Virus record (IMG/VR): IMGVR_UViG_3300034418_009359
Coordinates: 1 to 30,962 of that record
Length of the DNA stretch: 30,962 nucleotides
Source: a virus
Reading direction: 5' to 3' (one strand)
In this document: positions 27,044 through 30,802 of the stretch, piece after piece
How positions within the stretch are numbered: position 1 is the first letter of the stretch
Layout: every line of letters starts with the position of its first letter
Position numbers and translations under genes: made by a program
The notes under the pieces: model-generated
Databases searched by the model: none
The model's input: only the letters and a program-made list of their open reading frames with translations
Told to the model about the DNA's origin: nothing

Positions 27044-27117
27044 GCCTCTATAGCTCAATGGTAGAGCAAACGACCTATAATCGTTAGATATAGGTTCAAT
27101 CCCTATTAGAGGTACCA
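27044..27117 (+). tRNA. tRNA with anticodon TAT (nominal Ile), unusual C33
   Basis: Acceptor GCCTCTA with TAGAGGT (G1-U72 wobble), D-arm GCTC/GAGC, anticodon stem AACGA/TCGTT, loop CCTATAA (anticodon 27076-27078), T-arm ATAGG TTCAATC CCTAT, ACCA. Position 33 is C instead of the near-universal T. Second TAT tRNA in a row. Confidence 0.8.
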
Positions 27118-29496: not shown

Positions 29497-29520
29497 AAAG
29501 TGAGAACTTAAAGAAAAGGG

Positions 29521-29549
29521 TTTACATTGACATAAAAATAGAGTATTAT
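29521..29549 (+). promoter_or_regulatory. Sigma70-like promoter of tmRNA and tRNA-Met
   Basis: TTTACA, 17-nt spacer, TATTAT. Transcription would begin around 29556, just ahead of the tmRNA acceptor piece. TATAAATA at 29547-29554 overlaps the -10, so a late promoter could also act here. Confidence 0.65.
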
Positions 29550-29623
29550 AAATATATTGAAATTGTTGAAGGTGATGAAATAAACTATACAACACGCCGG
29601 GGCAGTACCGGCCGTCTCCACCA

Positions 29624-29690
29624 AAAATAGATTTCTGTACCTATTGTCGGTACAATTTCGAAGGGCACAACGAGGAAGTCTATTTTTGCT
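29624..29690 (+). other. Intervening segment of the tmRNA precursor
   Basis: This stretch joins the CCA end to the coding-piece start and should be removed in maturation. Its ends pair (AAAAATAGA at 29623-29631 with TCTATTTTT at 29679-29687), with an inner hairpin GTACC/GGTAC (29637-29641, 29649-29653). Confidence 0.75.
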
Positions 29691-29776
29691 GGGGACGAAC
29701 TAGGGTCGATTGGTAGTCATAAAGATCATTGAGATTTCCGGCATGATACCGCCGTTATCGGGTCGAACAAATAAAT

Positions 29777-29812
29777 GCTAACGACAACGAAGCATTTGCA
29801 GTAGCTGCATAG
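29777..29812 (+). other. tmRNA tag reading frame (ANDNEAFAVAA)
   Basis: GCT AAC GAC AAC GAA, then codons for AFAVAA and a TAG stop. The AND(N) start and hydrophobic AVAA end match alphaproteobacterial degradation tags, whose C-terminus is read by ClpXP-type proteases. GCT 29777 is the likely resume codon. Confidence 0.88.
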
Positions 29813-29863
29813 TTACGCGGGGTTAGAGAGGTTCCTTGCAACAGAATACCTCTCACTTATTAA

Positions 29864-29938
29864 CGCAGGGTAGAGCAGCGGCAGCTTATTAGGTTCATAT
29901 CCTAAAGGTCGGGGGTTCGAGTCCCTCTTCTGCAACCA
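29864..29938 (+). tRNA. Initiator-type tRNA-Met (anticodon CAT)
   Basis: A 75-nt cloverleaf. The first base C is unpaired opposite A72 (CGCAGGG with TTCTGCA), the formylmethionine initiator hallmark. Also seen are AGCAGC in the D-arm as in E. coli tRNA-fMet, an A11-U24 pair, anticodon loop TTCATAT (anticodon 29896-29898), T-arm GGGGG TTCGAGT CCCTC and ACCA. The anticodon stem TTAGG/CCTAA keeps two of the three G-C pairs typical of initiators. It begins almost directly after the tmRNA, so RNase P cleavage could separate both. Confidence 0.85.
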
Positions 29939-29945
29939 CTTAAGG

Positions 29946-30002
29946 CCGGGGGCTCATCGAAGTATAACTAGAAATAAGATCTAGCTTTGGTGAGCCCCCC
30001 GG
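29946..30002 (+). other. Long GC-rich hairpin before the endolysin gene
   Basis: CCGGGGGCTCATCGAAG pairs with CTTTGGTGAGCCCCCCGG, with one bulged C, and an inner CTAGA/TCTAG stem. It starts 8 nt after the tRNA and ends 7 nt before ATG 30010. No U-run follows, so it is either a terminator variant, an RNase III site or a translation-control element for the lysis gene. Confidence 0.65.
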
Positions 30003-30009
30003 GTAAGAA

Positions 30010-30558
30010 ATGAGTTATTCCAAAAAATATCTAACCATCTTTCTATGTACGACACTACTAAGTACTTTAGGCATGTTCCTATATGGACCTAAACAAGAAG
30101 TAGTCTTAAAAGACATTCAATATAAAAATGTCTATATAGAACAACATAAATATTCAGAATTAGATGTATTTCGTTATGATATCGATGAAATGCTTTGTTT
30201 AGCAAAGAATATATACCATGAGGCTAGAGGTGAAAGTGAAGAGGGTATGAAGGCAGTATCATATGTTACCCTCAATCGAGTCATGACCACAGGCTTTCCT
30301 GATAGTATTTGTGGTGTAGTCTATCAAAGGAATTCTAGGGGTTGTCAATTTTCTTGGACTTGTGATGGTCTTAAGGATATAATGAACGATCCTAAAGCAG
30401 TTGCTAAGTCGTTTAGCATCGCTTATCAGACAATTAATGAATATGATGATTTTACCGGTGGGTCATTATTTTATCACGCTTCACACATTAAACCATATTG
30501 GTCCGATACTTTTACTAGAGTTGCCTCTATAGGTGATCACATTTTCTATAAACATTGA
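30010..30558 (+). CDS. Endolysin, SleB-type cell wall hydrolase with N-terminal membrane signal
   Basis: 182 residues. Residues 7-26 (YLTIFLCTTLLSTLGMFLYG) form a signal-anchor or SAR-type helix. The hydrolase domain has MLCLAKNIYHEARGES (catalytic Glu), AVSYVTLNRV, and GCQFSWTCDG, then SLFYHASHIKPYW, as in the SleB/CwlJ family that cuts peptidoglycan. The signal segment suggests export by Sec, with the holin-like protein of 6511 possibly collapsing the membrane. The long hairpin just upstream may limit early translation. Confidence 0.82.
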   Translation: MSYSKKYLTIFLCTTLLSTLGMFLYGPKQEVVLKDIQYKNVYIEQHKYSELDVFRYDIDEMLCLAKNIYHEARGESEEGMKAVSYVTLNRVMTTGFPDSICGVVYQRNSRGCQFSWTCDGLKDIMNDPKAVAKSFSIAYQTINEYDDFTGGSLFYHASHIKPYWSDTFTRVASIGDHIFYKH

Positions 30559-30565
30559 GGATTAC

Positions 30566-30802
30566 ATGAACAAACCAGGCCTGAATATACAAGACTTACA
30601 CGTTGAAATTGAAAAGTTGGTAAGACGTGGGAAGGGCGAAGTTGATTACATTGATGCCGTCATTGATTATTGTGAAAAAAATAAACTAGACGTTGAAGCT
30701 ATTGCCGCTCAAATTAGGAATGGAACCAACCTTAAAGCTAAAATTCAAGAGAGTGCTGAAAATCTTAATTATCTCCCTAAGACAACAAGGCTCCCTGTAT
30801 GA
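30566..30802 (+). CDS. 33: Probable late-transcription coactivator, T4 gp33-like
   Basis: 78 residues from ATG 30566 (TGAGG upstream; a frame open from 30533 adds nonsense). MNKPGLNIQDLHVEIEKLVRR, VDYIDAVIDYCEKNKLDVEAIA, and LKAKIQESAENLNYLPKTTRLPV resemble the helical gp33 family, whose C-terminal (ENL/LP) region binds the sliding clamp and helps gp55 fire TATAAATA promoters. The late boxes in this window make such a factor necessary. Its stop overlaps the next start (ATGA). Confidence 0.6.
   Translation: MNKPGLNIQDLHVEIEKLVRRGKGEVDYIDAVIDYCEKNKLDVEAIAAQIRNGTNLKAKIQESAENLNYLPKTTRLPV

Follow-up and report, generated by a model that had tools for sequence, protein, structure and literature searches.

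The presence of a tmRNA gene in a virus record raises the question of why a phage would carry its own ribosome-rescue RNA, and whether that RNA is a recent acquisition from a host or a possession of the phage lineage. The record concerned is a 30,962-base IMG/VR virus record, analysed here over its whole length and referred to as the window. It is a fragment of a T4-like phage, with genes for a primase, NrdA, NrdB, an exonuclease, PhoH, a PD-(D/E)XK exonuclease, a SleB-type hydrolase and gp33. Matches to phrog_47, phrog_84 and phrog_86 mark the T4-type primase and NrdA/B, which together with the late-transcription coactivator gp33 (PF16805) characterise the phage as T4-like. The closest primases, at 41–44%, are those of cyanomyoviruses and marine single-cell viruses. 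Besides the tmRNA, the window encodes eight tRNA genes.

Anatomy and setting of the tmRNA gene

Both ARAGORN and Rfam recognise a complete permuted (two-piece) tmRNA gene at ~29,520–29,863 on the plus strand. ARAGORN reports a permuted tmRNA at 29530–29903 with the tag ANDNEAFAVAA. Rfam RF01849 (alpha_tmRNA) matches 29504–29857 with 159.1 bits against a gathering cut-off of 50 (E 2.8e-44), and RF04321 (tmRNA_permuted) gives 124.1 bits against a cut-off of 47 (E 4e-24). A first-pass annotation had read a complete two-piece tmRNA here and proposed the Rfam alpha_tmRNA model as a check, and both programs bear this out, the covariance-model score lying well over the cut-off. Its interval, 29584–29860, identifies the correct locus but starts ~28 nt inside the acceptor piece and leaves the promoter outside. 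Since a tRNA-Met gene begins at 29864, the coding piece must end by ~29863, and the ARAGORN end at 29903 is too far downstream. The features of the locus are as follows.

29521–29549, plus strand: sigma-70-type promoter (TTTACA at 29521–29526, 17 nt, TATTAT at 29544–29549)
29547–29554, plus strand: candidate T4-type late promoter motif TATAAATA, at a position conserved in viral copies
29556–29623, plus strand: acceptor piece (ARAGORN, Rfam and the alignment of relatives; 5' end inferred)
29596–29612, plus strand: T-arm, within the acceptor piece
29613–29619, plus strand: acceptor 3' strand, within the acceptor piece
29620, plus strand: A73 discriminator, encoded
29621–29623, plus strand: encoded CCA, the end of the acceptor piece
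29624–29690, plus strand: intervening spacer, probably removed in maturation
29691–29863, plus strand: coding piece, with the 5' acceptor strand (29691–29697), the pseudoknot motif, the tag frame and the 3' part CAACAGAA
29777–29812, plus strand: tag reading frame ANDNEAFAVAA plus stop, resume codon GCT (ARAGORN, Rfam)
29864–29938, plus strand: tRNA-Met(CAT), directly 3' of the tmRNA, with an initiator-like C1.A72 mismatch (ARAGORN, Rfam)
29946–30002, plus strand: hairpin between the tRNA and the SleB gene, with no T-run after it
30010–30558, plus strand: SleB-type cell wall hydrolase (PF07486, E 2e-25)
30533–30802, plus strand: gp33-type late-transcription coactivator (PF16805, E 1.8e-14)

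The acceptor 3' piece, with its encoded CCA, comes first and pairs with the 5' acceptor strand further on, which is the permuted order. As the first-pass annotation had stated, CGTCTCC (29613–29619) pairs in full with GGGGACG (29691–29697), giving a stem of 7 bp, and the third pair is G3.U70, the alanine identity pair. The tag that it had read is found in the coding piece, in the frame called by both programs, and the two processing points that it had named coincide, as positions, with the end of the encoded CCA (29623) and the start of the 5' acceptor strand (29691). It also correctly identified the tmRNA as permuted and alphaproteobacterial in type, and the phage as T4-like, which primase, nrdA/B, PhoH and gp33 bear out. 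The spacer is predicted to form a hairpin that prolongs the acceptor helix (z -2.8 by itself, -4.8 when the acceptor stem is included). No defect is seen in the acceptor stem, G3.U70, the encoded CCA or the tag frame, and judged by its sequence the tmRNA looks functional.

The gene sits between small phage genes and the SleB–gp33 pair, and from phoH to gp33 the genes that could be identified share one orientation. The adjoining tRNA-Met is initiator-like in its C1.A72 mismatch and in A11-U24, yet its anticodon stem contains only two G-C pairs; an initiator-like tRNA-Met is also present in near relatives. The segment 29938–30010 folds with -34.3 kcal/mol (z -5.2). Its hairpin was considered as an intrinsic terminator and rejected, as it has no T-run and is absent from the terminator scan; it is perhaps a processing or stability element. 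Elsewhere in the window, the tRNA-Ile at 27044–27117 has the anticodon TAT, its counterpart in contigs L088 (5562–5635) and L122 being GAT, and short degenerate GGGATCAAGTCTGGGATCAAG-type repeats, apparently coding for WDQ-like repeats, run from 30800 up to the contig end at 30962.

The tag ANDNEAFAVAA recurs in seven other viral contigs, which share the phage genes of the window, most at 97–100% protein identity. Because these contigs hold the same tmRNA with both mature pieces identical, the window gene is not a product of chance. The acceptor piece (56 nt) and the coding piece (166 nt) are identical throughout the eight sequences, whereas the 67-nt spacer carries 4–5 substitutions and one indel in five of the seven near relatives. 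The adjoining tRNA-Met shows 1–5 changes among them. Between the window and L088, 0 of 222 mature positions and 6 of 67 spacer positions differ (Fisher p 1e-4). Fixed mature pieces around a changing spacer are what selection on the mature RNA, with the spacer thrown away, would be expected to produce.

Viral permuted tmRNAs and their promoters

Two-piece tmRNAs in marine T4-like phages have already been published, and the window gene is one more; for phage genomes, a 2022 paper gives a count of 53 two-piece tmRNAs (PMC9004378). A blastn search of the tmRNA against phage records returned one 57-bp match and no useful relative, for which reason we turned to pattern scans. A scan for the paired core, with the spacer fixed at 45–75 nt, located a permuted tmRNA core in at least 119 stretches of viral contigs. 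Permuted tmRNA genes are widespread among contigs of T4-like phages. In a set of 63 distinct viral tRNA-like domains, standard pairs are formed at 97% of the positions of the acceptor stem and T-arm, compared with a shuffled maximum of 83%, in statistics that take no account of relatedness. Several of these pairs have changed on both sides; G3.U70 is present in 62 of the 63 domains, and ACCA in all of them. Viral tags nearly all end in ALAA, RLAA, AVAA or similar, C-terminal ends such as ALAA and AVAA being of the ClpXP degron type, and nearly all viral copies have kept an intact tag frame and resume region and a C-terminus of the degron type. Contig L100 (8159–9481) has two permuted tmRNA genes, one with the tag ANDNFASEDYALAA and one with ANENFALAA, both of which have a TTGACA...TATAAATA of their own in front, and for L055 (6074–6499) ARAGORN gives a tag that is unusually long for a viral permuted tmRNA, ADFKANGNVTFVNFGAKLPTNEEFALAA.

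Upstream of the window gene, TTTACA-17-TATTAT is the best promoter-like match of the region (10/12) and is kept in all eight near relatives. Taken alone it is weak evidence, because the regional site count is near the shuffle expectation. Comparison across the viral set is more informative. The motif TATAAATA is the T4 late promoter motif, which marine T4-like phages use too (NATAAATA) (PMC2984593). Of 123 viral permuted tmRNA genes, 91 have it 61–76 nt (nearly always 67–76) before CCACCA, against 1.5 expected from its same-strand frequency. Because the viral loci share ancestry, this and the other promoter and synteny counts do not represent independent events. After clustering at 85% identity it is retained in 51 of 75 viral genes, and it occupies that upstream place in 0 of 151 bacterial permuted tmRNA genes. 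A -35 element with at least 5/6 matches, nearly always at 17-nt spacing, accompanies 72 of the 91 tmRNA sites; of the 173 TATAAATA sites elsewhere in these contigs, only 8 have one. At the extended -10 positions of the viral tmRNA promoters, T and G occur most often. Exact TTGACA...TATAAATA occurs 56 times at tmRNA genes versus twice elsewhere; for exact TTGACA...TATAAT the figures are 0 and 39. Since TATAAATA is mostly fused to a TTGACA at 17-nt spacing, the viral tmRNA promoter looks like a combined early and late promoter. The composite of the window is less clean than that of most relatives, because its sigma-70 site and late motif are displaced by 3 nt from each other instead of coinciding.

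In a scan of viral contigs for the composite only, 18 of ~110 testable sites, among the matches listed, precede a permuted tmRNA 61–74 nt further on, and the strict check appears to have missed a few further tmRNAs. The TTGACA-17-TATAAATA composite thus appears strongly tied to the tmRNA, though not exclusive to it. In L295, L297 and L402 other genes stand behind it, including a recurrent frame beginning MAHFAELKAMTDPT, and the composite may mark a wider gene class that is expressed early and late. Overlapping early/late promoters have been proposed for the middle mode of RB49 and S-PM2, which lack MotA (PMC2984593). With regard to synteny, gp33 lies downstream on the same strand within 2.5 kb in 33 of 73 viral tmRNA loci with enough sequence; in none of the 73 was it found upstream within 2.5 kb or on the opposite strand.

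The closest known system is Methylophilales phage Melnitz (MZ577097, PMC9004378), like the window a marine T4-like phage with an alphaproteobacterial-type permuted tmRNA. The Melnitz gene is just upstream of gp33, and that of the window likewise precedes gp33. Melnitz has TTGACA-17-TATAAATA before the tmRNA, where the window has TTTACA-17-TATTAT with TATAAATA from 29547, and the tags differ (ANDNYVPVDYALAA in Melnitz, ANDNEAFAVAA in the window). The Melnitz tmRNA is followed by a predicted glutamine riboswitch, that of the window by the tRNA-Met and the hairpin; a glutamine riboswitch as in Melnitz was sought in the window and none was found. The tmRNAs of mycobacteriophages of the Bxz1 group and of Bacillus phage G are of the standard form, not permuted. 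These one-piece tmRNAs are phage-borne too (PMC4131195), but come from phages of other hosts.

Host capture or phage lineage

The first-pass annotation held that a permuted ssrA in a T4-like phage implies capture from the host. The window gene does have a bacterial look. With alphaproteobacterial permuted ssrA (RF01849) it shares the gene order, the acceptor stem, G3.U70 and ATGATACCGCCGTTA, and the identical tag occurs in 94 bacterial genome stretches, mainly of Rhodospirillales, Kordiimonadales, Emcibacteraceae and Sneathiella-type alphaproteobacteria. The pseudoknot motif ATGATACCGCCGTTA (as ATGNTACCNCCGTTA) is kept in the window group and present in 28 of 106 bacterial copies, and it is absent from all other viral copies in the set. 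Tag and pseudoknot motif together appear host-like, of the Rhodospirillales/Emcibacterales type. Other features separate phage and bacterial genes. In bacterial ssrA the commonest upstream motif is TATATT ~86 nt before CCACCA, compared with TATAAATA ~70 nt before it in most phage copies, and the bacterial acceptor piece has a hairpin for which phage copies mostly have too little room. The best bacterial match to the window tmRNA has 66–72% identity, in a sample of which 94 were chosen by tag and 73 came via whole-genome searches, and which holds no cyanobacterial or betaproteobacterial forms.

A tree of 78 viral and 71 alphaproteobacterial rows, with the tag left out, requires 1 label change between viral and bacterial, versus 49.9 in shuffles. 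This tree rests on a pairing-based extraction of the bacterial copies; the earlier two-piece alignments (1–2 label changes) and single short-piece trees (2 to 12) are supporting only. The dividing branch is weakly supported (64/44), and the window's own branch is long. Because viral copies group apart from bacterial ones, most phages seem to inherit the tmRNA from older phages, and the implied capture is not supported for viral permuted tmRNAs, which need 1–2 label changes against ~50 when shuffled. These sequence comparisons give good support to the view that the viral copies, taken together, did not arise as scattered recent captures.

The position of the window copy itself is less consistent. 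It falls with bacteria in FastTree trees both with the tag codons, whose agreement follows from how the set was chosen, and without them; in IQ-TREE runs it falls, weakly, with phages. AU tests on its placement give p values of 0.11 to 0.41, the bacterial placement (p 0.11) not being rejected. The tmRNA tree that the first-pass annotation had suggested as a check splits the viral set from the bacterial but places the window copy inconsistently. The trees are compatible with two origins of the window group: it could have been captured separately and more recently, or it could belong to the viral lineage and have retained host-like features. For viral tmRNAs generally, promoter, synteny and separation from host copies speak against a simple recent capture. 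It is the promoter motif, the synteny and the viral/host separation that our comparison adds to this known kind of phage tmRNA.

Proposed role and alternative readings

We consider it likely that the gene encodes a functional two-piece tmRNA of the phage, which would be transcribed early and late, processed, charged by the host, delivered by host SmpB, and used to tag products for ClpXP and free ribosomes. The sequence basis of this reading covers gene anatomy, constraint, promoter motifs and neighbours; transcription timing, processing, charging, tagging and benefit are deduced from the anatomy and the established tmRNA pathway. The precursor would be transcribed early from the host sigma-70 site, and late from the T4-type site after takeover by gp55/gp33/gp45. 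A cut at the CCA 3' end (29623) and an RNase P cut at 29691 would remove the hairpin spacer, and the 3' end of the coding piece would be made when RNase P releases the downstream tRNA. The two mature RNAs would be joined through the acceptor stem and charged by host AlaRS via G3.U70. Host SmpB would then bring the tmRNA to stalled ribosomes, and the tag ANDNEAFAVAA would mark the broken product for host ClpXP. A search for SmpB in 15 tmRNA-bearing phage records, including the complete Melnitz record and with the largest being 183 kb, found none, and the same search gave matches in 10 of 14 control genomes. On this ground phage tmRNAs presumably use the SmpB of the host; the window covers only 31 kb of its phage genome. 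The gain for the phage would be that ribosomes are kept free on broken or cleaved mRNAs once host transcription has been shut down, and such a benefit while the host copy is silent may be the most economical reading of the late motif. A role in ribosome rescue or proteolysis, as the first-pass annotation proposed, appears reasonable.

That tmRNA works on stalled ribosomes of any mRNA speaks against a selective tagging of host proteins. Such tagging, early in infection and serving to degrade host proteins for amino acids, was suggested for Melnitz by its authors, who name only the early promoter at the tmRNA and infer early action from it (PMC9004378). Most copies, that of Melnitz among them, have the late motif at this promoter as well, which argues against early-only use, and this explanation of the window gene is unlikely. 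It is quite improbable that the phage tmRNA acts mainly as a decoy or regulator, competing for SmpB or ribosomes and dampening host trans-translation like the tag-less DS6A molecule. A phage tRNA-like domain of the DS6A type does inhibit host tmRNA when expressed (PMC11915505, PMC4131195), but a decoy would need no tag frame, resume region or degron-type C-terminus, and that these are kept intact in the window and nearly all viral copies argues against it. A passive passenger without phage function (recently captured host sequence, a prophage attachment-site residue or a misassembly) is very improbable: tmRNA genes are common integration sites and the tag and pseudoknot motif match bacteria, but the whole gene stands between phage genes in eight contigs, its mature pieces are unchanged while the spacer diverges, its promoter is of phage type, no close bacterial match is present in the sample, and the corrected tree has the window on the phage side.

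A functional tmRNA that serves the phage thus remains our preferred reading of the window gene. For the viral genes as a whole, we lean towards an old, phage-owned lineage of permuted tmRNAs, distinct from present-day host ssrA, often upstream of gp33 and behind a superimposed early/late TTGACA-N17-TATAAATA promoter, by which trans-translation would be regularly expressed throughout infection in many T4-like phages. As to why a phage would carry its own ribosome-rescue RNA, promoter and synteny yield a testable proposal, namely that the phage needs its own tmRNA in the late phase, after transcription of the host copy has ceased. What had been an incidental annotation would become a widespread trait with contrasting predictions: expression early only, as proposed for Melnitz, or both early and late.
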